Below are positions 1 to 17,500 of a stretch of DNA of 28,622 nucleotides, piece by piece. A model generated the notes under the pieces. It worked only from the letters and a program-made list of their open reading frames with translations, was not told the DNA's origin and searched no databases. Source of the stretch: a virus; the IMG/VR virus record IMGVR_UViG_3300021197_001709, positions 1 to 28,622 of that record, one strand, 5' to 3'. Every line of letters begins with the position of its first letter. Position 1 is the stretch's first letter. The translations under genes and the position numbers were made by a program.

Positions 1-10
1 GATCAGTTGC

Positions 11-18
11 TATAAATG
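11..18 (+). promoter_or_regulatory. Possible T4-type late promoter box upstream of gp25
   Basis: TATAAATG matches the T4 late promoter -10 box (TATAAATA) at 7 of 8 positions. It lies 24 bases upstream of the GTG start of gp25, so a transcript starting a few bases downstream could still include the ribosome binding site at 30-34. No -35 element is expected for a sliding-clamp-activated late promoter. The same 8-mer overlaps the start codon at 11512, where it cannot serve that gene, so chance occurrence is possible. Confidence 0.4.
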
Positions 19-29
19 GAACGAACATT

Positions 30-34
30 AGGAG
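30..34 (+). promoter_or_regulatory. Ribosome binding site for gp25 (fixes the GTG start)
   Basis: AGGAG sits 8 bases before GTG at 43. An in-frame TAA at 37-39 rules out any earlier start, and no ATG occurs in the conserved N-terminal part, so this site supports GTG initiation. Confidence 0.75.
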
Positions 35-42
35 CATAACTC

Positions 43-447
43 GTGTCTCGCAATACACCACTAAAGAACTTATCCTTTCGGGATTTGGATTTGAACTTCG
101 ATGTTCATCCCAATTCAAAGGACTTGATCACGCTCAAGGGAGATGATGCTATTTCGCGGTCTTTGCGTAATCTAATCCAGTATGATCACTATGAAAAACC
201 ATTCAATCCAGACTTCGGTAGCAATATCAGGCGAAGCCTATTTGAGAACTTCGGGCCCCAGACAGCAACCACGCTCAAAAATGAAATAACTCAGGTCATC
301 CAAAACTATGAGCCCAGAGTAGATGTACAGTCTGTCAGTGTAAGTGCAGACGCAGATGAAAATCGGTATAGGGTGGTTATCAAATACTTAGTAGTAAATC
401 AAGCAACAACTAGAACCGCACAGCTATTCTTAGAGAGGCTACGATAA
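43..447 (+). CDS. 25: Baseplate wedge subunit gp25 (GPW/gp25 lysozyme-like fold family)
   Basis: This is a 134-residue protein, close to the 132 residues of T4 gp25. The family forms the inner wedge core of contractile baseplates, binds gp6 and gp53, and nucleates the first sheath ring. Residues 25-75 carry the family pattern: a short LITLKGDDAISRSLRNLI segment, then a PFNPDFGS turn. The conserved EPR triad is visible at residues 90-92 (YEPRVDV) and is followed by the beta-strand that pairs with sheath subunits in this family. Start is GTG, with in-frame TAA just upstream and AGGAG at 30-34. Its stop shares one base with the ATG of gp6 (TAATG), which implies coupled translation. Type VI TssE and phage P2 gpW belong to the same fold family, but the neighbouring gp6 identifies the T4-type member. 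Confidence 0.93.
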   Translation: MSRNTPLKNLSFRDLDLNFDVHPNSKDLITLKGDDAISRSLRNLIQYDHYEKPFNPDFGSNIRRSLFENFGPQTATTLKNEITQVIQNYEPRVDVQSVSVSADADENRYRVVIKYLVVNQATTRTAQLFLERLR

Positions 448-2318
448 TGGCGAGTACCGACAGGCTAAACGTCACAGAGCTTGACTTTGATAGCATAAAA
501 TCAAGTCTCAAGCGATTTCTAAATGGACAGCCGGAGTTTACAGACTATGACTTTGAGTCTTCAGGGTTGTCTGTGCTTCTGGATATCCTTGCATACAATA
601 CGCACTATCAATCATTCTATTTGAACATGATCGCAAATGAATCCTTTCTTGATACTGCCACGACACGAGAAGCGATAGTCTCTCTTGCAAAGGGAATCGG
701 ATATACTCCACGCTCGATTACCGGGGCTGTGGCATATGTTGACCTAACATTCCAGCCAAATGATCTTGGTGGTGAGATTGATGGTGAAGCTTCGCCAGTA
801 TCTCGTCTTGGAGCAGAAGTCAACATTCCAAAGGGATCAGTCTTTACATCTGAGCTTTCCAGTAAGACATATTCATTTGTTACAACAGATTCATACATTG
901 CTCGACCAACAGCTAATACGACAGGTGGATATCTGATCGGCGCGACCCAAAGTAGCGGAGTTGTACCATATACCGTTTCCGACATGAAAATAACTCAGGG
1001 TATATTTGTTAATGCTCAGTATATATTTAACTCACAAGTTGACCAGCAGTTTACTATCCCTAATAGCGGAGCAGATACTTCCACGATCAGTGTTCTTGTT
1101 ACAGATTCAATCGCATCAACAGCCACAGAGGTGTACACGAAGGTTGACAACTACGCAAATCTTGACGGTGAGTCTACTTCATTCTTCGTGAATGAGGCGG
1201 CGGATGGACGATTTGAGATTTACTTCGGTGATGGTTTGGTTGGCAAGAAGCCTACGGACGGATCAATTATTGATATCACATACGTTGTCCCTGAACCGGG
1301 AGCAGGAAACGGGGCGACCACTTTCCGAGCTGATCCTATTCGTTCTCCATTTTATGGAACTGGTGGATCAACTCACACGTATAATCCAACCACATTCACA
1401 TCGATCAATGCATCTGGAGGACAGGATCGTGAGTCGGCCGACTCGATTCGATTCCTTGCTCCGCTCAACTACGGAGCCCAGAATCGTGCTGTAACCAAGG
1501 AAGACTATGTTACTGCGATTCGCTCTGAGTATCCTCAAGTTGAGTCGGTTGCTGTATGGGGAGGCGAAGATGCTGAAATTCCACTCTATGGGCATGTTTA
1601 TATTGCAATCAAACCATCAGAGGGGTTCTTTCTGAGTCAAACAGAAAAGCAAAACATCATTGATAATATTCTTGCGCCTCGAAACGTTATTGGAATTACT
1701 CCCGTCATTGTAGATCCAGATTACATATTCCTCCAAATCACATCCGATGTAACATGGAACCCACGACTAACAGGGCTCACCCAAGCTACTTTGAGAAATG
1801 GTATTGTGGCAGAAATTTTGGATTTTGGTGATAGTCAACTCGAAAAGTTTGAAGAGACGTTCCGATACTCTCCTTTCACGCAATTGATTGATAATTTCGA
1901 TTCTGGAATTTTGGGTAATATTACCAGTGTGAATCTGCGAAAAGAAATCACCCCCGCAATCGGAACGGCCGCCAACTATACGATCAACTTCTCGAATAGC
2001 ATCAACAACCTAAAAGGTAGCGTGACGAGTAGCGCGTTCACATACAACAGCTATTCAGATTGTAAACTAACTAACAATCAAGGGACAATTTCTATTACAG
2101 CGACAGGCGGAGTCGTTGTTGCTGATTCAATTGGAACGGTAAATTATACGACAGGGCAGATTGTCCTAAACGACTTTCTGCCGCAAAGTGTTGGGTCGGG
2201 AGGAAAATTGTCTATAATAGTCAAGCCAAGCGTGAACGACGTATTTCTGAACCGAGGGGAAATTCTATCCATCATCAGCGACGATGTATCCGTTACAATG
2301 AAGCAAGAGATTCAATAA
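447..2318 (+). CDS. 6: Baseplate wedge subunit gp6 (baseplate J-like)
   Basis: The product is 623 residues, against about 660 in T4 gp6. Two gp6 copies per wedge form the iris-like ring around the baseplate hub. The N-terminal 80 residues, with ESSGLSVLLDILAYNTHYQS and then NESFLDTATTREAIVSLAK, are highly characteristic of the T4-superfamily protein. Residues about 348-393 (NRAVTKEDYVTAIRSEYPQV, then VWGGED) match the baseplate J core found in many contractile tails. The C-terminal region is beta-rich and includes a GTVNYTTGQIVL strand pair, the usual gp6 tail. It overlaps gp25 by one base, and its TAA abuts the ATG of the next gene (TAAATG). No frameshift or missing segment is apparent. Confidence 0.93.
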   Translation: MASTDRLNVTELDFDSIKSSLKRFLNGQPEFTDYDFESSGLSVLLDILAYNTHYQSFYLNMIANESFLDTATTREAIVSLAKGIGYTPRSITGAVAYVDLTFQPNDLGGEIDGEASPVSRLGAEVNIPKGSVFTSELSSKTYSFVTTDSYIARPTANTTGGYLIGATQSSGVVPYTVSDMKITQGIFVNAQYIFNSQVDQQFTIPNSGADTSTISVLVTDSIASTATEVYTKVDNYANLDGESTSFFVNEAADGRFEIYFGDGLVGKKPTDGSIIDITYVVPEPGAGNGATTFRADPIRSPFYGTGGSTHTYNPTTFTSINASGGQDRESADSIRFLAPLNYGAQNRAVTKEDYVTAIRSEYPQVESVAVWGGEDAEIPLYGHVYIAIKPSEGFFLSQTEKQNIIDNILAPRNVIGITPVIVDPDYIFLQITSDVTWNPRLTGLTQATLRNGIVAEILDFGDSQLEKFEETFRYSPFTQLIDNFDSGILGNITSVNLRKEITPAIGTAANYTINFSNSINNLKGSVTSSAFTYNSYSDCKLTNNQGTISITATGGVVVADSIGTVNYTTGQIVLNDFLPQSVGSGGKLSIIVKPSVNDVFLNRGEILSIISDDVSVTMKQEIQ

Positions 2319-5300
2319 ATGATCTCGGCTAATAATAAAATCTCGGTCATCGTAGAAGATCAGCTCCCTGGCTTCATTCGAGAAGATCATGACAACTTCG
2401 TTCAGTTTGTTAAGTCATACTATGAGTTTTTGGAACTAACAAATCCTCCGGTGGATATGCCACTACGATTTGTCAATCCGAGTGAGACGACATATACCTC
2501 AACTAATAAATATGGAGCGGGGCCTTTACTTGTTGGCGAGACAATCAATCAATATGCGGACGCGGTTGACTCGACTATTATTACCGCAAGTGCTGTAGTA
2601 TTTGCATATAACGCAACCGCTACGACGAAGACGGTAACGATTACTGGAATCGCAGGCACCACCGGATTGTTTATCGCAAACAAAGAAATCATTGGTGAGA
2701 GCAGCGGCGCTAAATATTGGCCATCTTCTAATATAAAGCAAGCTCCTACAGGCGCGCTCCAGGCGTCATATGACATTAGTAATATTCGTGATATGGATTT
2801 GATGTCAAACCAGTATATTGATTTCATTAAGAAGGAGATTGCTTCTGGGTTTCCGGCGCGCTTCGATAAGGGAATTGATGAACGAACTGCTCTAAAAAAC
2901 CTCCGCGACTTCTATCAGTCAAAGGGAACAGAAAACTCCTTCCGGTTATTGTTTCGATTGGTATTTGGTGAGGACATTGATATATATCTCCCATCAGAAA
3001 ATATGCTCCGGCCGAGTGTTGGGGAGTGGGAACAGCGGACAACATTGCGACTGGATTCGCGCATAAAGGATCTCCTATCGGCAGATGCGCCGCGCGATGT
3101 TTCTGATATCGTCGGGCAGAGGGTGACGGGGATATCATCTAAAGCAACTGCAATTATTGAACGAGCGCAAAAAATAATTTATGCTGGAGACACGTTTATT
3201 GAAGCTGACATCACTTCAAAGGCTGGTACATTTGAACCCGACGAGCAGGTTCGGGTTGCATATATTGAAGCAGAAACAAACTCCGCAGTCACAATCGAAC
3301 TCAAAAATTATGGACTAATTTCATCTATTGATATCACTGATGGTGGTTCAAACTATGCCATTGGAGATCAAGTATCCATTGGTGGTAGTAATGGGCTCGG
3401 CACCATTGCAAGGGTTTCTGATGTAGATTCTATAACAGGTGAAGTCAAAGCTATTGAAATAATCGATCCTGGGTATCGATACACTGGGCCACCCTCGACA
3501 ATAAACTTGAACTCCCCCCACAGCGGAGATGCTGGATCTACCCGATTCGAGGCTGGACCACTAGAGTCTATTCTTGATGTTGATTTTAATCATAAAATCC
3601 TAGCCAACAGCTTCTTCGCAGAGAGTGACAATCGCGGAGCATATGCAAATACTGGTGCTGTTGGTTTCGATCTTTATGACATCGATGGCGCTACAATTAT
3701 AAACCCGGCCAGCACGGATGCGAATAGCTTCTCAAACTTCGTAACCGTACCCGGAAAGGATGAGGGGCTTCAGGCTTGGTGGAAGTTTGACTCCTACAAT
3801 ATCATTGGAGATGTAACAGTCAACACGCTTGATGGTACATTTGGAGACGGAAACGATCCAACGGCTAATGTTATCAATTATGGTTATTGGGGCCCACGGG
3901 TTTCTGATTCTGTATATCGACCTGATTTCAAAATCCCTGCGTTCGGTTATGGTTCCCTTGACCCACTCAAGACACGAACAGTCCCTTCCCAGAACACTCG
4001 CATAACTAACACATATAGCGCAACATCAAATGCGACTTCGGCTAATTCATATAACCCAAATGGATGGGTGGGGTTCAAGCCTATTGTTCTGGACTCAAGT
4101 GGCAACGGAAATCATGCTTGGCTCCAAACGGCCAACAATCTCGCACCGGCTACAAATTTCACTGGGCGCGCTAATGTGGTATCTCGCGGAGCATTCTCGG
4201 AGCGAGGCATATTTGGAACGGGATCGCTTGCTAACACTTGGGTGAATGGGCCCAGCGCAACCGAGCCCCAGAATGATCTTGGTGGAATTGTGCTTCGCGC
4301 ACATGATGACCTACGAAATGCAAACACGCAGACTTGGGTGATGTGGTACTATCCATATGGAGAGATTGGATCCTTCGGTGGAACATATAACAATGACACC
4401 GAATGGGTACAATATGACTCTGAAGCGCCGGAGTTTGATGCAAATAACGCACCCAATATCCTTAGCCGTGATGGTGGTTCATATTGGGCCCTTCAGGCCA
4501 ATGCAACCTCGACGGCAACAAGTGACTATCATGATGTAATCTTCCGATTCCAAGGCGCTGAATGGGATAACGGGAACGCGGTGAATGGTCAGGTTGCAAA
4601 CACATCAGGACAATTCCCCGGACACAATGCCGGAACGCTGAATGCGGGTGGTGGATCGCTTCGCGCACAAACTTGGAACATGATCGCACTATCTATTGAT
4701 CATACCGTAGGTGTTGGTAATCTATTCTTCTTTAATACGACGGACGGATTCCATTCCTCCAATGGGTTTTCTATCCCCGTTACACAGGACGCAAACACAC
4801 CAGCATTAGGAACTTGGCCAGTCGTTAATGGAGACGCTCAAGGTCGTGCTGTTGTTCTTGGTGCTGCATCGGCATCTGCTAATGGAGACAGCAATAGCAT
4901 TGAACGGAATCCAGCATCATCAGCTCATGGTCGATATGATGAAGTTCGATACTATGACCAAGCACTGAATCAGCAGCAGATCGCTCATCTGTTTAATAAT
5001 CCGGGTGGGCGCTTCGATAATACCCTATCAGGTGAATGGGCTATTGTTAATCCGGCTGTATCAGGGAACACAGCTGCCGAGTTTCTATATGATAGCGGCG
5101 AGACCTCTCAGATTTTCCGCATAGGAAGTGATGACACTTCAACTGGGCTTCAGGTAGTCTATAATAAAGATATTGCGTTTGACCCAGCCGCACATTATAA
5201 ACTGACGGTCAAGGCTCGCAACACAGATGCAGGAAACTCATCTAACGTGCAGTTTGGTGTTATTGGTATTGCGGACACAGGAACACGGTTGCTCGGATAC

Positions 5301-8300
5301 GACGCAGCAGATGATTGGGATAAGTCACAACCCATTGCCCAATCGGGCGCGGACCTCGGAACAACATGGGTAGAGAAGACGGCCGTCTTTGGAGGCAACA
5401 GCTCACCCTTACATTCTGGTTGGGACGCTACGGGTGACGGCGAAGGTACATATACATGGAACAATCCAGCCAAGTTGTATGGTGACGTGGGTGCTGCGGC
5501 GGGAAACACAACATTCTTCCGGCCGGTTCTTAGATGGGATGAGTGGACCGCTGGCGACTTCACCGAGATTGAATATGTCAAAGTTGAAGTGCAGCGCCCT
5601 GCTACCCTGACTGCTACAATCGCAGGTGAGTTTGTATGGCCCGGGCGCGACATAGGAGATGCTGGGAAACTCAGTACATCACCAGCGGGTATATGGCTAC
5701 CAAAGCATCTTAGTGATAATAATTTCTATCAGGCATATTCATATGTTATTCAAAGTGGATTGTCCATTGAGGACTACCGGCAGATTGTGGATAAGCTCGT
5801 CCACACTTCAGGTAAAAAACTATTTTCTGAGGTTCAACTTACATCAAAGGCCGATTTAAGTCTAACTGCTTCTGCATTCAATGAGTCTCTTATTAGGCTC
5901 TTGTTTATATTCTACGGTGGATCTGAGCGTCTACTACTAGGGCCCGGCGAGACTTGGGATGGGCGTTCCCTAAAGGGTGATGTGGCGATCAAGTCCGAAT
6001 TCGGGCTATATGATTTACCAGACCTTCCGTTCGACCTTGATCTTGCTCATGGTGAATTTGACGTTTTGGATCACTTAGCGGTGAGTGATCGACAAGACCA
6101 AACAGAAGACTTCACGGGAGAAAAAACCATACGGACCTACTCCAATGGAGATACGACTACAAAATTTGCTGATACTATTTCTACTGCCCCACAGGATGCC
6201 CATGCCGGATGGAGAGTTGTTCACGGAAGCTCGGACAATGGCGGCACCATTATTGATGGGCCAAATCTAAGAATTTACCCAGACCCCGAGAAGGGCCCAT
6301 TCCCCCTTCTTCAAACCCGCACTTCCACCACCGACTATACATACAACATCGATGGAACAGAATACCCCAAGATACAAATGAAGATCAGAAGAGTGTCCGG
6401 TACCCGAGACACCGCTTGGACTGGAACTATGTTTTGGGGAAGAGTAGATGGTCTAGATAATAGAAGCCCTGACGGTAGTAACGTTGCCGATGGAGTAGTC
6501 ACTCCTCGTGACTATCCATATGGTCGAGATGGCGTAACTTTAATAAATTACTCCAAAAACATCCCGAGACCTACCTTTTGGGGCCCCGACTTCCATATCC
6601 TCGAATGGGACTTTACAAACGATCCTCGATGGGAAGGGGAGACCATCACAGAACTTCGATTTGATTTTGATCGAGGGGCTACAGAAGCTAATCCGACTAA
6701 TAACGTGTATGAGATTGAGTATATTAGGTTTGTTGCTGCGGATCAATTTACATATGGTTCACCTAACGGTCCTGCTTGGATTGCGTGGGATCAGTCTCCT
6801 CTCGATAATCCATATGCCAATGGGCATTATAGTTCGGTTCTGTATCCAGATCCAACATACGCCTCGTCAAACAGCGCAACGCGCCCGACAAAGGATACGC
6901 TACTTTGGGAAGTAAGTGGTGCCTATGCGAAACTTGTAACAGGGTACGAGGATACCGAGAGAAGCACTTTCGCTGGATTATTATATGTCTCCGGCCCGTT
7001 CGGTACGATCGAAATTCCGCGACCTAATGCAGAAGGTTTGTTGGCTCTTGATGGTCACTATCATCAAAACGATCCGTATACCGCCGACGAGAATGATGGG
7101 GTCAACTGGCAAACTAGTCAAGAGCTACCACTAAACATCGATAGCAGCACATATCGTTATGTGCGAATGAAGGTGCGTCGTATTGGCCCGGGTGGGTATC
7201 GCACAAGTGCAGAACTCGCCACCGATCCAATATCTGATCCATCCGCTTGGATTGGTGCATGTCAAGCAGAAACCCGAGATAGTGCTTATGGTAATATTGG
7301 CGCGAATTATAATCGAGTTCAGATCGGTGGAACAAACATCGGCGCGAATACAATATCACAACCAGAAACATTAATCATCCCAGCGGGGTCCGACGCGGAC
7401 ACCAAGTCTCCTTGGCATATCCTTGAATGGGATATGCACGATGTTGGGTCTGGTGTGGTTGGTGCCAACACAATCGTAGCTGATACATTTGCAGCGAATA
7501 ATATCGGGTGGCTCGGGATCACACTAGTTGGGAATCCAACAGAGAGTAATGAAACATTTGAGATCGACTGGATCCAAGTGGACGATGGAACAAAGTTTCC
7601 TCGTGGGAATCACCAATGGCCGATCGGACGAACGGATCAGGTTGGCGAACTGGCCGGCGAGCGCGATCAATACAATGACGGATCGGGTGTTGGTGGATAT
7701 GCTAATACGATGAAAGTGAATAGTTCTTGGGACTACTCAACTCGCCCTATGGGACAGTTCTCGGTCGCTGTCAGCTCGCCGCAAAGTTCTGAAATTAAGT
7801 TCGCGAATACTGCGGCCAACAACGCAACAGTGATCTATGTGGCAACATCATTAAGACACGCTGCAACTTCGGGTACGAACCCACCGACAGTGGTATTGAC
7901 GCCGGCCCTCGCGGCCGATCAAATTCTTCGATTCTCGGCAAACACTGCAAATTCAACAGATTGGATTTCTAGTAGTCAGATAAGCGCAAACGACGATAAC
8001 ACAATGTACTCATTGTTCACTGATCCGCTCGGCGCACACTATGAGCGAATTTCGATGGAACTTGATGATAGAGATACAATATTCTTAGGCTACCAGTACA
8101 CCGAGGATAAAGGATCAACCCCCGGAACAAGTAACTTTGAATATCCGGCGAATGTGATTACATCGGACTCAAGACCGTTTTATATTATGCATTATCAACC
8201 CTCCGGTAATGTGGCTCCAACTGGTGTTATTGGCGGTAACACCGGGCACAATTTCTTTGGTGTGTCTAATAACTATATCAGTGAGCTTGTTCTGTATGGA

Positions 8301-9611
8301 AATACAGTAGGAGATGGATATGAAGTATTGGGTCATGGGCCTCGCGCGCTTGAGAACGATACAATTCCGACTTTAGGAACATACACCTCGATCGAAGAAG
8401 TCAATACAAATGATATGATGATCAACTATCGCAACCATCTCCATGTAGTTGGTAAAGCATCACAGAATGTTCTTTTGATTAAACCTGCTCCGGGCACAAC
8501 ACGAGACGGGACAGTTAGTGAACTGCTTCCATTGGTATTAGATGAAGAACCAATTTCCCATGATATTCCATACTCTGACGGGCTAGGGAAAGTACGAGTC
8601 GGCCCGGATCGGAATCGTGTTACTGGAGTTGAACAATTCAATATTATGACATCATCGACGATTGACTCAAACGGTGTTGTGCTGGGGACATGGAATCCAC
8701 ACGCAATCATCGAAGGTCCGAAGGGGTCATTCTTCGTCGCATGTAATAACTACAATACTAGTTTTGGAACTGATAGTATTTACTGCTATCATGTTGTGCC
8801 TACCCAGAACGTGGCCACAGGTGAAATTACGACAATGAATGCATATCCGGTGTATGCAAACTCAGCACACACGACGGATCTCTTTCAGGGTTGTACAGGA
8901 ATGGCAATCGATAATCTCGACCCGCCGAACTTCTACTACGCAACAGCAAACACGATCTTTAAGGTTGAGCCAAAGGGATATTCATATGAGACCGGTGATA
9001 CGAAGATTACCCAGCTCATAAACTCAGACTACACCTTCTGGAATACAAATCATGGAACAGGAACGGTTTATCCGCCTCTTGGCAAGTATCCTTCACAGGG
9101 ATTGTTAGTAGGAGCAAAGATCTCTTCGCATCCGTATATAATGGAAGGCACATATTCTAGAATGAATGTCGATCGATACAATCGACTATTCTTTGGTGGT
9201 CAAGCAAATGTATATATATATGATACAAACACTGATCAACTATCCATTGCCTATGCGCCGCAAGAAAATCAAACACAAATTCCAACACTGACATCAGTAA
9301 ATCTTAACACAGTATATGATAATCATACGCTTCTCGACTTTGACGTTGAACCTTATACTGGTGAACTTGTATTCATTATTAGCAATACAGGTAACGGTCG
9401 GTCAATGGTAGGGTCGATTCGACCTAATGCTGATCTATCATACACTATCGCAGATGGGGATCAGCTCGTTCAAACAATCATTGATGCAGATATAACTGAT
9501 CGGTTCTATAGTCCACAGCCAACAGGGATTGGTGCATTTACCGAATTCGCGACGGGCCCAGGAGCAAAAATTAGGATTCGCAAACAAAAAGATGATGAAA
9601 GACCAGACTAA
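2319..9611 (+). CDS. Giant baseplate wedge protein at the gp7 position, with lectin-like and beta-propeller-like expansions
   Basis: The product has 2430 residues and lies between gp6 and gp8, where T4 has gp7 (1032 residues). Residues 1-400 look like the marine-phage wedge protein: ISVIVEDQLPGFIREDHDNF at the start, YQSKGTENSFRLLFRLVFGE near 198-217, and glycine-tyrosine strand repeats at 334-391. The core resumes near 1120-1240 with NNFYQAYSYVIQSGLSIEDY. Between them lie a LamG/concanavalin-like domain (about 480-900; GLQAWWKFDS, LDSSGNGNHA, YDEVRYYDQALNQQQ) and a carbohydrate-binding-like beta-sandwich (about 905-1095). After the core come two related beta-sandwich repeats (about 1312-1477 and 1563-1760), another beta-rich region, and a propeller-like region (about 2106-2390). 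No signal peptide or membrane segment is seen. The structural role follows from synteny and core motifs. Carbohydrate binding is inferred from domain resemblance only. Homology to T4 gp7 itself cannot be shown here. Confidence 0.75.
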   Translation: MISANNKISVIVEDQLPGFIREDHDNFVQFVKSYYEFLELTNPPVDMPLRFVNPSETTYTSTNKYGAGPLLVGETINQYADAVDSTIITASAVVFAYNATATTKTVTITGIAGTTGLFIANKEIIGESSGAKYWPSSNIKQAPTGALQASYDISNIRDMDLMSNQYIDFIKKEIASGFPARFDKGIDERTALKNLRDFYQSKGTENSFRLLFRLVFGEDIDIYLPSENMLRPSVGEWEQRTTLRLDSRIKDLLSADAPRDVSDIVGQRVTGISSKATAIIERAQKIIYAGDTFIEADITSKAGTFEPDEQVRVAYIEAETNSAVTIELKNYGLISSIDITDGGSNYAIGDQVSIGGSNGLGTIARVSDVDSITGEVKAIEIIDPGYRYTGPPSTINLNSPHSGDAGSTRFEAGPLESILDVDFNHKILANSFFAESDNRGAYANTGAVGFDLYDIDGATIINPASTDANSFSNFVTVPGKDEGLQAWWKFDSYNIIGDVTVNTLDGTFGDGNDPTANVINYGYWGPRVSDSVYRPDFKIPAFGYGSLDPLKTRTVPSQNTRITNTYSATSNATSANSYNPNGWVGFKPIVLDSSGNGNHAWLQTANNLAPATNFTGRANVVSRGAFSERGIFGTGSLANTWVNGPSATEPQNDLGGIVLRAHDDLRNANTQTWVMWYYPYGEIGSFGGTYNNDTEWVQYDSEAPEFDANNAPNILSRDGGSYWALQANATSTATSDYHDVIFRFQGAEWDNGNAVNGQVANTSGQFPGHNAGTLNAGGGSLRAQTWNMIALSIDHTVGVGNLFFFNTTDGFHSSNGFSIPVTQDANTPALGTWPVVNGDAQGRAVVLGAASASANGDSNSIERNPASSAHGRYDEVRYYDQALNQQQIAHLFNNPGGRFDNTLSGEWAIVNPAVSGNTAAEFLYDSGETSQIFRIGSDDTSTGLQVVYNKDIAFDPAAHYKLTVKARNTDAGNSSNVQFGVIGIADTGTRLLGYDAADDWDKSQPIAQSGADLGTTWVEKTAVFGGNSSPLHSGWDATGDGEGTYTWNNPAKLYGDVGAAAGNTTFFRPVLRWDEWTAGDFTEIEYVKVEVQRPATLTATIAGEFVWPGRDIGDAGKLSTSPAGIWLPKHLSDNNFYQAYSYVIQSGLSIEDYRQIVDKLVHTSGKKLFSEVQLTSKADLSLTASAFNESLIRLLFIFYGGSERLLLGPGETWDGRSLKGDVAIKSEFGLYDLPDLPFDLDLAHGEFDVLDHLAVSDRQDQTEDFTGEKTIRTYSNGDTTTKFADTISTAPQDAHAGWRVVHGSSDNGGTIIDGPNLRIYPDPEKGPFPLLQTRTSTTDYTYNIDGTEYPKIQMKIRRVSGTRDTAWTGTMFWGRVDGLDNRSPDGSNVADGVVTPRDYPYGRDGVTLINYSKNIPRPTFWGPDFHILEWDFTNDPRWEGETITELRFDFDRGATEANPTNNVYEIEYIRFVAADQFTYGSPNGPAWIAWDQSPLDNPYANGHYSSVLYPDPTYASSNSATRPTKDTLLWEVSGAYAKLVTGYEDTERSTFAGLLYVSGPFGTIEIPRPNAEGLLALDGHYHQNDPYTADENDGVNWQTSQELPLNIDSSTYRYVRMKVRRIGPGGYRTSAELATDPISDPSAWIGACQAETRDSAYGNIGANYNRVQIGGTNIGANTISQPETLIIPAGSDADTKSPWHILEWDMHDVGSGVVGANTIVADTFAANNIGWLGITLVGNPTESNETFEIDWIQVDDGTKFPRGNHQWPIGRTDQVGELAGERDQYNDGSGVGGYANTMKVNSSWDYSTRPMGQFSVAVSSPQSSEIKFANTAANNATVIYVATSLRHAATSGTNPPTVVLTPALAADQILRFSANTANSTDWISSSQISANDDNTMYSLFTDPLGAHYERISMELDDRDTIFLGYQYTEDKGSTPGTSNFEYPANVITSDSRPFYIMHYQPSGNVAPTGVIGGNTGHNFFGVSNNYISELVLYGNTVGDGYEVLGHGPRALENDTIPTLGTYTSIEEVNTNDMMINYRNHLHVVGKASQNVLLIKPAPGTTRDGTVSELLPLVLDEEPISHDIPYSDGLGKVRVGPDRNRVTGVEQFNIMTSSTIDSNGVVLGTWNPHAIIEGPKGSFFVACNNYNTSFGTDSIYCYHVVPTQNVATGEITTMNAYPVYANSAHTTDLFQGCTGMAIDNLDPPNFYYATANTIFKVEPKGYSYETGDTKITQLINSDYTFWNTNHGTGTVYPPLGKYPSQGLLVGAKISSHPYIMEGTYSRMNVDRYNRLFFGGQANVYIYDTNTDQLSIAYAPQENQTQIPTLTSVNLNTVYDNHTLLDFDVEPYTGELVFIISNTGNGRSMVGSIRPNADLSYTIADGDQLVQTIIDADITDRFYSPQPTGIGAFTEFATGPGAKIRIRKQKDDERPD
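3760..5016 (+). other. LamG/concanavalin A-like domain inside the gp7-position protein
   Basis: Residues about 481-900 show the hallmarks of LamG-like jellyroll domains. GLQAWWKFDS is the opening strand, LDSSGNGNHA is the usual DxSGNGxxG loop, LRAQTWNMIALSID is the strand after the loop, and GRYDEVRYYDQALNQQQIAH is the closing DEVRxYxxALxxxxI motif. Such domains commonly bind glycans, often through calcium. The extra length over a typical domain of about 200 residues lies in loops rich in Asn, Ala and Gly. Confidence 0.75.
5032..5620 (+). other. Carbohydrate-binding-module-like beta-sandwich inside the gp7-position protein
   Basis: Residues about 905-1100 begin with a GEWAIVNPAVSGNTAAEFLY segment. 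They include HYKLTVKARNTDAGNS, the hydrophobic strand plus Arg motif of galactose-binding-like modules such as CBM4/9, and close with FTEIEYVKVEV. The closing strand resembles those of the two downstream repeats (EIEYIRFV and EIDWIQVD), so this may be a divergent third copy. Ligand unknown. Confidence 0.5.
6254..6750 (+). repeat. Protein-level repeat copy A (beta-sandwich)
   Basis: Residues about 1312-1477 of the gp7-position protein. Landmarks are YNIDGTEYPKIQMKIRRVSG starting at 1342, HILEWDFTN at 1426 and EIEYIRF at 1465. All three recur in the same order in copy B at 1605, 1700 and 1748. The match is at protein level, and the DNA of the two copies has diverged. Confidence 0.7.
7006..7599 (+). 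repeat. Protein-level repeat copy B (beta-sandwich)
   Basis: Residues about 1563-1760 of the gp7-position protein. Landmarks are LNIDSSTYRYVRMKVRRIGP at 1605, HILEWDMHD at 1700 and EIDWIQVDD at 1748, which align with copy A. Spacing between landmarks is about 10 residues longer than in copy A. The fold suggested is a galactose-binding-like sandwich. Confidence 0.7.
8636..9480 (+). other. Beta-propeller-like C-terminal region of the gp7-position protein
   Basis: Residues about 2106-2388 contain repeated blade-like units: NPHAIIEGPKGSFFVAC, then GMAIDNLDPPNFYYATANTI, then RMNVDRYNRLFFGGQANVYI, then LLDFDVEPYTGELVFIIS. Each has a small-hydrophobic-D/E-x-x-x-G-x-hydrophobic pattern as in NHL or SMP-30 type propellers. 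Blade count is uncertain, about four to six. The role may be structural or receptor-directed. Confidence 0.5.
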
Positions 9612-9635
9612 ATATACAAGAATTGGTAACTTTCG

Positions 9636-9643
9636 CATAAATA
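9636..9643 (+). promoter_or_regulatory. Probable T4-type late promoter box upstream of gp8
   Basis: CATAAATA matches the T4 late -10 consensus TATAAATA at 7 of 8 positions. It sits in the longest intergenic gap of the window (9612-9665), 22 bases before the GTG of gp8 and upstream of its ribosome binding site. Its position in a rare gap makes it more convincing than the other candidate boxes. Confidence 0.55.
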
Positions 9644-9654
9644 ACACCACAGAT

Positions 9655-9658
9655 GGAG
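9655..9658 (+). promoter_or_regulatory. Ribosome binding site for gp8 (fixes the GTG start)
   Basis: GGAG lies 7 bases before GTG at 9666. An in-frame TAA at 9642-9644 with no ATG in between leaves GTG as the supported start. Confidence 0.7.
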
Positions 9659-9665
9659 AATCGCC

Positions 9666-11501
9666 GTGCCAGCAATCGTAACAAAGCAGTTTCGCGTTCG
9701 AAACGCAAAGGAGTTTGTAAACAACCTCCTCTCATCATCTGAAGGTGGATCGAGTGCCTATGATGGCGTAAGCTATGTATATCTGGCTTTCGGTAAAGTA
9801 GTGCCTTGGGATGAAACAAACTTTGGGGCTGATGATAGCAATCCACCTGACCCGGATGAAGATGTTTCTCTTCTATATGATGTGTTTCGAGATGGTATTG
9901 CTGCTTCTAGGGTTTCCGCAGATGAGGTTCGTCTTGGAATTCGAAGATATGACTGGACTTCCGGTACAGTGTACAGCCAATATGATGATCAAGATCCATC
10001 GATCATGAATGGGACGGCGGTATTCTTTGTATTTGATCCAATCACAGGCCATATTTTTAAATGTCTCGATAATAATTCTGGTGGCAAATCTACGATTCGA
10101 CCGGCCGCGCCGATTGCTGCGATCACCGAGCAAAGTTTTTTCACGTCCGATGGATATCGATGGAAGTTTATGGCAGAAACTTCTTTAGTAGATCAGAAGT
10201 TCTTAACAACAAATTACGTGCCGATTCGAACGCTCAATGTTCATCCAACAGCTTCCGTTCCTGTCGGATATCAGCTACAGCATGACATTCAGTCGCGAGC
10301 AAATACAGGGACGATTGAGACATATAAAGTTACTAGCGCTGGATCTGGATTCCAAAAGCACAGTGGAGGCGTTCCGACTCGAACGATTGCTACGGGCGCA
10401 TCTGCTACTCAGTTTACGCTAACCTCGGACGCGGCGATATCGGCTTCCGACGATTTCTACAACGGAGCAACGATAGTTGTGGATAATGGGTCAGGAGTAT
10501 CTGAGAGCGGGATCATCAGCGATTATGTTGGGGCATCAAGAACAGTCACGCTCGACGCTGCAACCCCGCTCTCGTACTCGCCGGTTGGCAATGAAACATA
10601 CCATATTGGACCAACTGTATGGGTGGCCGGAGACGGAGCAGGGGCTAACGCATATGCTATTTGCACATCAGCAGGCGCGATCAATCAGGTAAATGCTCTC
10701 AATACTGCCAACACCGGGAATAGTTACACGTTTGCCACGGTGACAGTAGATCCACAATCACGCGACGTAGGGTCAGGGGCATCAGTTCGTTCTATTATTC
10801 CACCACAGGGTGGGCATGGCCATGATCCAGCAGATGAGTTGAACGGATTTAATGTTCTACTTAACAAGACTATCAATGGTGCTGGAGAAGGCAACACATA
10901 TCCCATATCCAATGACTATCGTGTAGTTTCTCTGCTTCGTAATACTCTGCTGACAAATGGATATAATAAGGATGTGCTTACTCCTGCTACGACGGGTGCT
11001 AACTGGTTTGCAAATACCCAATCGGTTCATATGTCAACATGGCTTGTGTGTAACACAACAACGCTTGCTATGGGACAAGGGCCGGACCCGGCCGGCTCAA
11101 TGCAGCAATTTGATCAATGGAATTCTGGGACGGGCCCGCTGCCTGATGACGAAATTGTAGGTATCAATAGTGGAGCAAAGGGTCGTGTTGTTGAGTTCAA
11201 CACTGATGGTAGAGGTATCCTAAATATAACAAACGTTGTAGCAAATACAAGCGGAGGAACTTTCCTCGAAGATGAAGCCGTTATATTAACACGGACCTAT
11301 ACTGGATTTGTTCCGACAACTAATAACTATCTTGTAGCAAACGGATTCAGTCTTGGATTTGTAGCAGACCCCGAATTTGATGTACTACAGGTCGGAGAGC
11401 TTAAAGCAGGAACCGGGGAAGTTCTTTACGTTGAGAACCGACGACCCATCAGGCGATCGCCGGAACAGCGCGAAACTATCACTATTGTGATTGAATTCTA
11501 A
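9666..11501 (+). CDS. 8: Baseplate wedge subunit gp8, enlarged
   Basis: gp8 is the dimeric wedge component that links gp6 and gp7 to the peripheral baseplate. The N-terminal 190 residues are clearly of this family: LLYDVFRDGIAASRVSADEV, then RRYDWTSGTVYSQYDD near 99-114, then FFTSDGYRWKFMAETS. PPQGGHGHDPADELNGF near 379-395 and the C-terminal EVLYVENRRPIRRSPEQRE are also diagnostic. At 611 residues it is nearly twice T4 gp8 (334). The extra sequence lies mainly at about 222-375, where a small beta module (about 244-315, ending NETYHI) is inserted, and at about 490-550, where a GE-x-V/SGA strand motif occurs (DDEIVGINSGAKGRVVEF). Start is GTG, preceded by GGAG. It is separated from the previous gene by a 54-base gap with a late-promoter-like box. 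Confidence 0.9.
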   Translation: MPAIVTKQFRVRNAKEFVNNLLSSSEGGSSAYDGVSYVYLAFGKVVPWDETNFGADDSNPPDPDEDVSLLYDVFRDGIAASRVSADEVRLGIRRYDWTSGTVYSQYDDQDPSIMNGTAVFFVFDPITGHIFKCLDNNSGGKSTIRPAAPIAAITEQSFFTSDGYRWKFMAETSLVDQKFLTTNYVPIRTLNVHPTASVPVGYQLQHDIQSRANTGTIETYKVTSAGSGFQKHSGGVPTRTIATGASATQFTLTSDAAISASDDFYNGATIVVDNGSGVSESGIISDYVGASRTVTLDAATPLSYSPVGNETYHIGPTVWVAGDGAGANAYAICTSAGAINQVNALNTANTGNSYTFATVTVDPQSRDVGSGASVRSIIPPQGGHGHDPADELNGFNVLLNKTINGAGEGNTYPISNDYRVVSLLRNTLLTNGYNKDVLTPATTGANWFANTQSVHMSTWLVCNTTTLAMGQGPDPAGSMQQFDQWNSGTGPLPDDEIVGINSGAKGRVVEFNTDGRGILNITNVVANTSGGTFLEDEAVILTRTYTGFVPTTNNYLVANGFSLGFVADPEFDVLQVGELKAGTGEVLYVENRRPIRRSPEQRETITIVIEF

Positions 11502-11504
11502 GGA
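11501..11504 (+). promoter_or_regulatory. Ribosome binding site for the DUF4815-type gene
   Basis: AGGA starts at the last base of the gp8 stop codon and lies 7 bases before ATG at 11512. Confidence 0.6.
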
Positions 11505-11511
11505 ATTATAA

Positions 11512-14500
11512 ATGCCATTAAATGCAAATACCGCACCATATTATGATGACTATGATCCGAGCAATCAATTTTACCAGATCATGTTCAATCCGGGTAGACC
11601 TGTGCAGGCGCGGGAACTTACGCAAATGCAGACAATACTTCAAAAGCAGATTGAGCGAATGGGAGATCACATCTTCCAGCATGGCGCTCGGGTTCTTGGG
11701 GCTCAGATATCATATGCAAAATGTAAGTTTGTAAAACTGGCAGACTATGAAAAAAACGACTCAAATGAAGCCGCGATCAACCTAACGAACATCTACGATA
11801 CAACTAGTCTTTTAGGTGCATCGGTTGTTCTTGATGCCGCATCTGCTGGTGACTACGGAACAGACGCAGATGGAACTGTAATCACACCGGATGGCAGGAG
11901 CCCCGTTGCTCATATCATCTATTCGGCTGCCCGAGATGGTAGTGATCCGGCAACTCTTCTTCTAACATATGATACAGAAGATGAGTTCGCGGCAAACGAC
12001 TTCATTCGCACGCTCGCTGGAACATCATTTACCCAACGAAGCTATGTAGTCAACGCAACACCCACGTCAACCTCTGCGGCTGTTGGTGATGCCACTTACT
12101 CAACTGTTACCAGTGGTGTATTCTATATCAAGAGTTCTACAGGATCTCACTTCACATACTGTAGGTCTCAACGGATTCCGCTGTCCAAGTACACGAACAG
12201 ACCAACATACAAGGTTGGGCTAAAGGTCAATGAGGCATTCGTAACCGAATCAAGTGAGGCATCACTCTATGATAATGCCGGAGGAACAAATCAACCAACT
12301 GCTCCTGGCGCACATCGACTCAAAATTGACCTTGAGCTTGCGGTAGCCCCCGGTTCAGATGGGCTGACCATCAGCGATGATGCAGGTCAGGATTTTGTTG
12401 AACTGCTCCGCATAGATAATGGGGTCCGCGTTAACAGTACACTTGCGCCGGATGCGTCGTCGAAGATTTACTCTGCTATTGGTGATGTTATGGCAGAGCA
12501 GGTCCATGATGCTTCAGGCAACTATGTGGTTGAACCATTTGAATGTCGAGTTGAAGACACAAATCCACCAAGCAATAAGCTAAAGGTCACACTTCAGCCC
12601 GCGCGCGGTAAAGATACTGCTCGTGCGTATGTAAAGGGACGCGAGTTTGAAATGTCTGGTCCGTGGTCACAGCTAATCGATAAGGCTCGTGATACATCAA
12701 TTGAACGGGATCTTATCGCAGCAACTCCAATTGGGTCGTTTATTATGGTCCGAGATCTCAAGATCGATGACCACTTGAATGAAGGTTCGAGCGCCCGCAC
12801 AGGACTTCTTCCTCTATGGGATCTCCATTCAGTAGAGTCATCTAAAATCAACATTAGTTCACTCGAAGAGTATAACTCCACTCGCGCTGGGTCATTCCGC
12901 TTGCGTGATATCGTTAATGGCGGCCGCTTTGCTACTGGAGCAACTTCGAATGTTCATGCTCTATATCTACAGGACTACAAGACATCCAACGCGCTAACAG
13001 GATCATTTACGGCCGACGCAACAACAGGCACCGATACCTCGCTCGGTGCCACGGGAGTCACGATTAGTCTGACTGACCGAAATACAACTGAGAACGCATA
13101 CATCGGATCTCGGATCTCAATTGTATCATCGACCAATCATCCCGATTACGCAAATCAGACTCGTGCTGTCATCGCGAGCGCGGCCGGAGCTGGAGACCGA
13201 GTGCTGACGCTCGATACTCCATTCGATCAGCCAACGAATGATAAGACCTTCCCAGGCACAGGGGAGACCTACTCTATGGTCATCGAGCCAACGGCTGCGA
13301 TGACAGGAAATGGATCGGTTGTTCCGTCTCCATATCGCGACCACGACGTTGCGATTGGCGCATCCACAATGCTTCTTACTAGAGTTGAAACAGGTAACGC
13401 ACAGATCTTAGTATCGGAAGCTAGTGCAAACAGCACTCCGTTTATCGGAGGGCCCCAGCCTTCGCTCATGTTCCCGCTAGCCACAGGCGGCGCACGGGTT
13501 GCCAACTCGATTGATAGTTCAGTCACCGGAGCCGATGTCTTCTTCGTCACCCGATATAACTCAACCACACAGTCAGTGGCCACAGTCGCGACATTTAATA
13601 TTAACCAATATCGACTCGACACCGGTACCGGATTTTCCGCAGGGCAGTTCATCGAAGGAACTACGACAGACAACTTAGTTGTGATTAATGAGACAACAGG
13701 TAGGATAATCAATGGTGCTGATATAACATCGGCTGTTGTGACAGCAGGTTCAATTGTAATAACCAGCACCAACTTTATCTCCAACGGAGAGAGCATTCGT
13801 CTAATCGCCCCGGCTCGCATGAATAACCTTCCAGCAAAGAAGAAGACATTAAAGCAGGGGTTGAATACACAATCCGCGTCTGCGACACTCACTACCGATA
13901 GAAATACAAAAGGTTATGTTGTATTCGATGCACCAAATAGGATTCCCGGTGGTTCAGATAACCTTGGTGCGGTGGATGTATATCGCATTGCTGGGATCTA
14001 TGACAGCGGAGATATTAATGTAGCCCCCAATGCGGCCGATCTCAACGTAGACGCGAAAAATATTACTAGCCGATATGATCTTGATAGTGGTCAGCGAGAG
14101 GATCTATATGACTACGCATCTATTATACTAAAGGCTGGCGCGGCCGCACCGCTCGGGCAGATTGTTGTAGTATATGATTGGTTTAGTCACACCGACAATC
14201 TCGGAGATGAAGGTGGATATTTTAGTATCGATTCATACAATAATCAAGTTGCTCTTGAGAACATACCATCATTCACATCAACGTCAACTGGAATCCGGTA
14301 TAACCTCAAGGACTATTTGGACTTCCGACCATCGCGGGCTGTTTCCGCTACCGGCGCAGCAAACACATCATACTATGTGCCAATTAGGGACATCTCTACT
14401 ACATCAGGAGGAGTTGCCGCAAGCGCAAAGAGCATTGGGCACGTTGATTCAGCGGGTGCCTTCTGGTACTTCATGCAATATTTTGCCCCACGATTTGATG

Positions 14501-17500
14501 CAGTGGTTATCGGTGATCGCAAGACTGCACGCGGAGCAAACACTGGGATGCTCCAGATCGTTTCAGGATCAACTAATCGGTCACCTGCTACCCAACCAAG
14601 GGTGTCGGCGCAAGATATGGCTCTGTTTAACCTTGCCATTCCATCCTACACGAAACGGCCTGAGGATGTAATCGTAACGAAGGAAAATAACCAGCGATAT
14701 ACCATGAGCGATATTGGTGCTATCGCGAATCGTGTTGATCGGCTTGAATACTTCTCATCGATGAACACGATTGAGCAAGAGGCGGCAGGCATCAAAATAA
14801 TTGATAATGATGGCATCGAAAATTACACGAACGGAATCCTCGTTGATACATTCGATTCTGGGACCGCCGCTGCTGATATTGGGATACCGGGGAGACCAAA
14901 TCCAGACTTCAATGCATCAGTGGGAAAGGGAATGCTTCGTCCTGCTGTTGAGCAGGAGCATATCGAGCTTACCATTAGCGACATCGATAGTACGAATATC
15001 CATCGCACGCATGGGCAGCTAATGATGCCATATACCACAACGACAGACAGTCCAGGCCTGTCCAATAAGCGTGCAACATTGAATGGTACAGAAAACATCA
15101 ATCCATTCCAGATTCAAGCATTCTACGGAGAGGCTTCACTGTCGCCGAGTAGCGACAACTGGCATTCCACGATGGATCTTGCAGCGTCGTCTTCAGATAC
15201 AGCAAATGCACGTCGGGCCGCACAAGATATGATCCAACAACGGATCGATCGTGGTGAGTCCAATGTTAATTGGGGATCTTGGGAAGACGATTGGTATGGT
15301 GCTGAAGTAGTAACTACTAATATTCGATTAAAAGATCCTGAAGGTGCATTTGAGGCAGTTATCAATAACCCTCCAGCACTTAATCCTTGGCTCGCCAATG
15401 TTATGCCTCTGGATCCAGATAAATATATCCACTCTCCAGTGAGTGGATATACATACGCATCCGTGGCCGCCGGTCAACGGCCGGGTTTGGAGATCAAAAA
15501 TTATCTAACTGCTGGTCAGGCTTCAACATTACCATCACATCCAAATGGGATAATTGACTGGGCACAAGTTGTGATTCACAGAAATAACACTTCCCCCACC
15601 TTCAATGTTGCGAGTCAGATTCGAGTTACCGATGAAGAACAATCACAAACAATAACATCACAAGATGTTCACCAAACCCGCACTGGAACATCTCTCCAGT
15701 TTAATCTAGGTGAAGAGACCGTTCTTATTGATGATCGAACGCTTTCGTCTATTGTTGCTCCTTATATGCGTCCGGTTGACATCACATTCCGCGCAAGACG
15801 AATGAAGCCAAGGACGACCGTTTTTCCAATATTCGATAAAGAACTCGTTACCAATTATACTGAACGAGCAAATGAACTGATCCTGCGTAATACTAGTGGG
15901 GCGGATGCCTATAATAATCCATTTGGGGATCTTGGTCCGGGTGAAGAGGAAGTTCTAGGGGACTCATCAAACACCGGAATAGGAATTGCAGTCGGGACAC
16001 TTGGAAACACAGTGTTCCTCGTTTCAGCAAATGGAATATTTGACCCAGCAGGTGGGATCATAGTTCGATCACGAAATGTAACCGCACCAAATAAGACAGT
16101 GGTCGCATATAAGTCGTTCTCGGGAACACTTGAAGTTGCTCCTTCATCGGTATCCGATGTATCCCTGCAAATAGATGAATCAGCAAAGCTTTGGTGGCAC
16201 ACGACAAGCGAAACCACTCGCGCATCTGAGCAACCTGGCGGAAGTCTTGATGTTGATCTATACGATCGAAAGATATATCTTGTTGATGGTCGCGGGTATG
16301 GTCAGAATCGAACGATTGTTGCGTACTCCAATACTACCGGGACAGTAACACTCGACTCTGGATGGGCACTAACACCAAACACACAGACCCGATATTCAAT
16401 TGGCGAGCATTATACTAGTTTTGCGGGGAGCGCATATGGGGTTTTGCATGTTCCAAACCCATCATATTCCAATAGAACCTCACAGCACTATGTTGAGGGC
16501 GCGACGATTACTGGAGATGAACATTGGGCATCTTCGGCCGAATCAGACGAAAGAACTAACGATACGCTTCGCTTCCAGTCAGGAATGAAGGTGTTCTCTC
16601 TTCGAAATGTACCAAACGCGACTGCTGGAGAGTCGGCAACGCACGTTGAGATTCCGTTTATGTCATCGGGAGTCATTGACGTTGGGCAATATCAAACGGT
16701 GTTCTCTATTGATACGGTTGTAGTGGATCATGAGGAATCACGCACCATAAATCGAAGCGCGACTTCGGAGTGGACCGCGACCGGAAATATTATTGAGACT
16801 GGTGATGTGGTTAAGTTCTTTGATCCAATCGCGCAGAGCTTCCTTGTAGATGGAAACGTCTACCCAGAAGGAATATTCATTGATAGTGTAGACGTTTGGT
16901 TTCAGACGAAACATACTGATGAGTCGGGAGTTCAGTTACCAGTCACATTAGAGATTCGACCAACAATCGCTGGCGTTCCACATGGCGGGAAGGTTCTTGG
17001 AAAGAAGTCATTGCTTCCAAGTGAAGTTAATATCCTAACAGGGCAGCCAGGAGATGTTAATCTAACTACAGCCGCAGCAACGAACTTCAAGTTTGACCGT
17101 CCAATTAAGCTCAAGAGTGGAAATCAGTACGCTATTGTTTTGGTATCCGACTCTTTGGATTATCATGTATGGACAGCAGAAAATGGGCAGCCTCAGCTTG
17201 GAACGGGTGGAGAAGGTTCACAGGCCACTGGTGTCCCTGCTGTCATCATGGACGGGCAGCCTCATCTTGGATCATTCTTCAAGTCTCAGAATGGAGTCAC
17301 ATGGAACCCAGAACAGAATCAGGATTTATCATTCGCTATTCATAAGTGTGAATTCACTCCGAATCAGGTAGCAACAGCAGTCTGGAAGTCAGTGAACGCA
17401 CACTCGGGACCAGTTCCGTCATTCTCCCATGTTACAGATCCACTTAACCATGTTAACTATGGTGCAGTGACGGGTAGCGCTCCAATCTCAACGCCACATC

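Follow-up and report, generated by a model that had tools for sequence, protein, structure and literature searches.

A lectin-like block within the core of a T4 gp7-type baseplate wedge protein in a metagenomic virus

The baseplate locus

The window, meaning the whole stretch of DNA that was analysed, is a 28.6-kb fragment of a metagenomic virus. It begins with a run of baseplate genes, the third of which carries the insertion described here:

43-447: gp25, start of the baseplate gene run
447..2318, + strand: gp6, the upstream wedge partner (phrog_219, E 1.7e-164)
2319..9611, + strand: wedge protein of the gp7 type, 2430 aa, which bears the insert (PF23786, wedge PHROGs, minimal-core model)
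9666..11501, + strand: gp8, the downstream wedge protein (PF09215, E 4.5e-11; phrog_438, E 1.1e-80)
11512-18612: VrlC/DUF4815 protein

Within the 2430-aa protein, two conserved core halves are separated by a long added stretch and followed by an extension. In the following list, support is given in brackets:

2319..3038, + strand: first core half, residues 1-240 (minimal-core stretches 12-44 and 152-240; family HMMs)
3039..5702, + strand: the 888 aa, residues 241-1128, that the minimal contiguous core does not have (minimal-core model)
3072..3533, + strand: Gly-Tyr beta-repeat block, residues 252-405 (alignments, model confidence)
3552..3590, + strand: first strand of a CBM-like jellyroll, residues 412-424 (model strand 416-422; VIA-align)
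3741..5033, + strand: LamG-like domain, residues about 475-905 (sub-threshold PF13385 matches, here and in four homologues)
5034..5600, + strand: rest of the CBM-like jellyroll, residues 906-1094 (AlphaFold, VIA-align, Foldseek)
5652..5867, + strand: second core half, residues 1112-1183 (minimal-core stretch 1129-1183, E 5.5e-12; alignment)
5889..9608, + strand: post-core extension, residues 1191-2430 (modular, with indels relative to L016 and L017 and replacement in L008 and L013)

Identity of the gp7-type protein

Position and sequence both identify the carrier. It lies between gp6 and gp8, the position of gp7 in T4, and in Pfam it matches Baseplate_wedge (PF23786) at residues 185-228 with an E of 1.7e-6, alongside matches to several baseplate-wedge PHROGs. 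The first core half consists of N-terminal helices (residues 1-41), a beta-type spacer (45-143), and a region bearing the KGTENSF motif (144-240), while the second is marked by the motifs GKLSTS, FYQAYSYVIQSG (at residue 1135), and KLVHTSGKKLF. The spacer (window 2451-2747), which separates the N-terminal helices from the KGT motif, is a second variable stretch, about 100 residues long in the window and in cyanophage-like relatives and near zero in many others.

Profiles of both core halves were built from 12 sequences, and a scan of IMG/VR with the second-half profile returned 80 loci; these were recruited through second-half motifs, and proteins without a second half are thus not represented. 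In most of the 80 loci both halves occur in one ORF, separated by anything from 1 to 2,707 residues. The halves are adjacent in four ORFs of 291-313 aa (L047, L058, L084, and L098), the last of which is a more distant minimal core, 27-29% identical to the other three. An alignment of these four served as the minimal-core model, and because it holds neither the window nor T4, identification of gp7 with it is free of circularity. On the window protein the model matches stretches 12-44, 152-240, and 1129-1183, for a total E of 1.1e-36, and on T4 gp7 it matches residues 651-758 and 854-891 (E 4.5e-7), with both halves in the same order in the two proteins. Compared directly, T4 gp7 residues 732-767 align to a short stretch of the window ORF with an E of 0.014 alone (T4 comparisons were drawn from the NC_000866 record or PDB chains). 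By sequence and gene order, the 2430-aa ORF is a T4 gp7-type wedge protein, i.e., a gp7 orthologue. The two nevertheless differ in layout: in T4 gp7 about 650 residues precede the core and only about 95 separate its halves, whereas the window protein has 888 between the halves and about 1,250 after the core, and no counterpart of the N-terminal part of T4 gp7 was detected in it. The match of P2 gpI to the minimal core was not significant; a KGT-helix-strand pattern that looks similar by eye is a lead only.

The two short core halves can serve as a definition of gp7 at the sequence level, and this definition recovers the protein both in phages said to lack it and in those whose records label it head closure Hc2 or simply structural protein. 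Pelagimyophages and cyanomyophages, for example, have been said to lack T4 gp7 and to have VrlC in its place, and the same work noted YHYH and concanavalin-type domains in structural proteins that it left unassigned (PMC7029224). In the record HTVC008M, I899_gp055 (L006, 12001-15051) matches the minimal-core model with an E of 2.5e-41 and, by its position and both core halves, is a gp7-type wedge protein, although its RefSeq label is head closure Hc2 and phrog_3465 and phrog_460 are named likewise. YHYH modules, moreover, occur inside gp7-type proteins in IMG/VR contigs. The published claim that gp7 is absent from pelagi- and cyanomyophages (PMC7029224) thus looks wrong. The identification is not wholly new, since some cyanophage records already say gp7 or baseplate wedge.

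A common insertion point

In the window protein, the passage from model position 131 to 146 spans 888 residues, and the profile splits at residues 240 and 1129. A split near model position 131, giving separate N and C stretches, was found in 80 non-duplicate ORFs, with the N stretch ending mostly at 129-136 and the C stretch starting mostly at 130-136. Because the core breaks at about the same point in all 80, the tolerant site is one position common to T4-like phages. Insert length in these ORFs has a median of 411 residues and a range of 84-2,707, and the only uninterrupted matches came from the four ORFs used for model building. In 82 of the 85 gp7-type ORFs that have enough upstream sequence, gp6 ends no more than 400 nt upstream. 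Close relatives also differ at this point: L068 and L100 share cores that are 92% identical and carry inserts of 331 and 868 residues, respectively, and the difference of 537 residues is mainly a tandem-repeat block.

These observations bear on an earlier note, made from the sequence of the window, which had placed a lectin- and CBM-like block inside the core of the wedge protein at the gp7 position and had attributed it to insertion into a tolerant loop. The profile split agrees with that placement, and the motifs at which the core was said to resume (GKLSTS, FYQAYSYVIQSG, and KLVHTSGKKLF) are present and conserved. Insertion at a tolerant point of a gp7-type core is likewise supported, both by the indels between L068 and L100 and by the contiguous-core homologues that the note had anticipated, namely the four short ORFs above. 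Its extension of the N-terminal core to about residue 400 did not hold. Strict conservation stops at about residues 240-251, and the Gly-Tyr block that follows (252-405) is found in most relatives and is missing from the minimal cores.

The CBM-like jellyroll and the LamG-like domain

Modelling of residues 1-1200 with AlphaFold (20 rows) gave a mean pLDDT of 42.7, and in this model strand 416-422 together with residues from about 906 to 1094 forms a jellyroll of moderate confidence, with pLDDT mostly between 50 and 80. VIA-align superposes this jellyroll on the CBM4-2 structure 2y64 (Z 11.4, rmsd 3.2 A, 152 aligned residues), pairing model residues 415..1092 with chain residues 1..167, and every one of the listed VIA-align matches starts at or before residue 416. 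Foldseek ranked a phi812 baseplate chain first, with CBM16, CBM22, CBM11, and CBM15 also among its matches. Residues 412-424 and 906-1094 are thus modelled, with moderate confidence, as one jellyroll near the CBM4/16/22 type. At the sequence level, PF02018 (CBM_4_9) matched neither the window nor any of 11 other records at E up to 1, and a profile of the CBM-like part gave chance matches only against PDB sequences.

The region between the two parts of the jellyroll resembles LamG. Laminin_G_3 (PF13385) matches window positions 4824-4985 over profile positions 97-151 with 23.7 bits (E 8.1e-7 for the record), and a weak collinear piece lies at 4596-4724. The same part of the insert matches in L011, L009, L017, and L016, with E values from 2.9e-5 to 0.02 and scores below that of the window, and the curated cut-off of 27.6 bits was passed neither by the window nor by these four. 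Hallmarks of the family can be picked out by eye (EGLQAWWKFD, VLDSSGNGNHA, QTWVMWYYP, WNMIALSID, and GRYDEVRYYDQALNQQQI). AlphaFold gave the region a pLDDT of about 23 in the 1-1200 model and 29.0 in a dedicated one. Since no match reached the cut-off and the dedicated model scored only 29.0, the region is called LamG-like rather than a member of the family, its putative fold following from weak but consistent sub-threshold HMM matches. Further searches were uninformative: a profile of the region gave only chance matches to MHC class I among PDB sequences (best E 0.069), comparison of the block with profiles of three phage LamG domains was not significant, and Foldseek with the LamG-only model (pLDDT 29) returned nothing meaningful, as expected at such a pLDDT.

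The model is most simply read as a CBM-like domain with the LamG-like domain nested in it, apparently after the first jellyroll strand. The earlier note had set the block at 3600-5640 (residues 428-1107), with LamG-like segments preceding CBM-like ones. That span does take in the LamG-like domain and part of the CBM-like domain, and both kinds of segment are indeed found, but the CBM-like part begins already at about residue 412 and the LamG-like domain apparently lies inside it. The jellyroll that the note had expected was obtained for the CBM-like part, with moderate confidence, and the LamG-like part yielded only the weak HMM matches and low pLDDT given above. Nesting may go deeper still. 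In L016 (ORF 2926-12702) the LamG-like domain is itself split by two blocks, at residues about 585-830 and 1202-1788, and this double interruption speaks for insertions nested within insertions. The interruptions (about 247 and about 590 residues) are absent from L017. Both blocks share a KGKxWIFSYY motif.

Other modules at the insertion site

Among 39 large inserts scanned, YHYH was found in six and FG-GAP in two. A LamG match over the Pfam cut-off at the insertion site was found in a single insert, that of L071, whose gp7-type ORF (2-18100, 6033 residues, open at its 5' end) holds a 2,707-residue insert with both YHYH and LamG. The insert of L100 includes simple tandem repeats. In L042 (8105-9982), an insert at this site weakly matches the N-terminal domain of the T7 tail fibre (E 0.0078, below cut-off) and is possibly, from its sequence, a fibre-attachment-like element.

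Relatives and age of the block

The source being a 28.6-kb metagenomic fragment, the arrangement could in principle be an artefact, either a chimeric contig or a misread frame fusing two genes. The same order and spacing, however, recur in other contigs in one open frame, from 98% DNA identity (L008 and L013) down to about 42% protein identity, with L009, L011, and L017 also sharing the arrangement. A metagenomic chimera is excluded by this recurrence in independent contigs, and an artefact of any kind is exceedingly improbable. Over the aligned protein, L009, L011, and L012 show 56-64% identity and have the block as well; in L014 and L017, at about 37-42% protein identity, it still spans about 700 residues, without shortening. 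Since its base composition carries no foreign signature and it is common to homologues that are about 42% identical, the block is old in this lineage. The insert had no tblastn match in 50,697 phage records and no relative in a scan of bacterial and archaeal genomes, and further viral scans returned the same group only; with no relatives outside that group, no donor was found.

Proposed function

The gp7-type core may offer phages a permissive slot, and we estimate at roughly 0.6 the probability that in the window lineage this slot holds a lectin-like block on the baseplate rim that binds host polysaccharide and aids the fibres. The two core halves would pack with two gp6 chains into the wedge core bundle and trifurcation, and the single permissive point between them, probably a strand-to-strand turn in the trifurcation sheet, would act as a display slot. 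Here it would be filled by a beta-repeat stalk, followed by the CBM-like jellyroll with the LamG-like domain inside. By analogy with T4 there would be one block per wedge and six per baseplate, most likely exposed at the rim, where weak but multivalent binding to host-surface polysaccharide could assist the tail fibres. This adhesion reading draws on the CBM-type fold of the model, the LamG-like sequence, the fact that modules of surface-binding type turn up repeatedly at this site, and precedent.

Two precedents are instructive. In the herellevirus Vp4, the wedge protein Gp119, with CBM16-type domains, decorates host cells, and a homologue without CBMs does not (PMC11406892). The resemblance lies in a CBM-bearing wedge protein with a relative (Gp177 of Deep-Blue) that has no CBMs (PMC11406892), whereas Gp119 is a wedge-3 protein (BW3, A511 gp105-like) rather than gp7, and nesting of LamG within a CBM is not described there. 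Evolved Dits of lactococcal siphophages likewise have carbohydrate-binding domains inserted in a body protein of the tail tip, with a measured gain in adsorption (PMC10688798), but protein, tail type, and host class all differ. Membership among evolved Dits was rejected for the window protein, the carrier being a gp7-type wedge protein, and the analogy is one of mechanism only.

The main rival explanation holds that the block docks tail fibres, or other proteins of the baseplate, instead of touching the host. Equivalents of gp7 do have such loops: the orthologue XM1 gp17 uses its loop 80-106 and C-terminus to hold twelve tail spikes (PMC10457771), and loops 1 and 2 of TssG in the T6SS anchor TssK trimers (PMC6300606). 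These loops are short, and the receptor-binding-type proteins that they present or anchor are separate proteins. The weak tail-fibre match in L042 also fits docking. Yet the insert ranges from 1 to 2,707 residues and holds unrelated modules while gp6 and gp8 are conserved, and modules such as YHYH and the LamG-like and CBM-like ones more typically serve surface binding, which leaves docking rather unlikely. Alternatively, the block might be a mere decoration that is neutral or stabilising, comparable to the Ig-like domains found elsewhere in virions, and that has persisted through drift where the core tolerates it. This would suit the simple tandem repeats of L100 and the wide variation in insert size, but it accords poorly with conservation of about 700 residues, unshortened, in L014 and L017 at about 42% identity, and is improbable. 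Host binding by the block is accordingly the favoured reading.

More tentatively, and with somewhat less than even odds, most T4-like phages other than those of the T4 group may use one universal gp7 slot to swap and nest lectin-like modules. If so, a fixed point in the trifurcation core would let phages vary the side of the baseplate body that meets the host, in a matryoshka order of core, CBM-like, and LamG-like domains, with further CBM-like blocks inside LamG in L016. The findings themselves point to one fixed site on the baseplate body, rather than the fibres, as the place where these abundant aquatic phages vary surface-binding-like modules, and they predict that the wedge itself takes part in host contact in many T4-like phages.

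The post-core extension and gp8

A Pfam scan of the post-core extension gave no match, and blastp detected no internal repeats in the 2430-aa protein. By eye, two more CBM-like segments and, near the end, a possible beta-propeller can be made out at window 6039-9608. One relative is 98% identical to the window over positions 1-6950 and has no nucleotide match thereafter (L013, 14659); its gp7 continues past that point with a proline-rich linker and repeats. The break at 6950 reflects either a very recent C-terminal exchange or misassembly. Finally, the neighbouring gp8 (9666-11501) is 611 aa long and covers its matched PHROG of 478 positions from end to end, and from this difference in length it seems to bear an insertion of its own, of about 130 residues.
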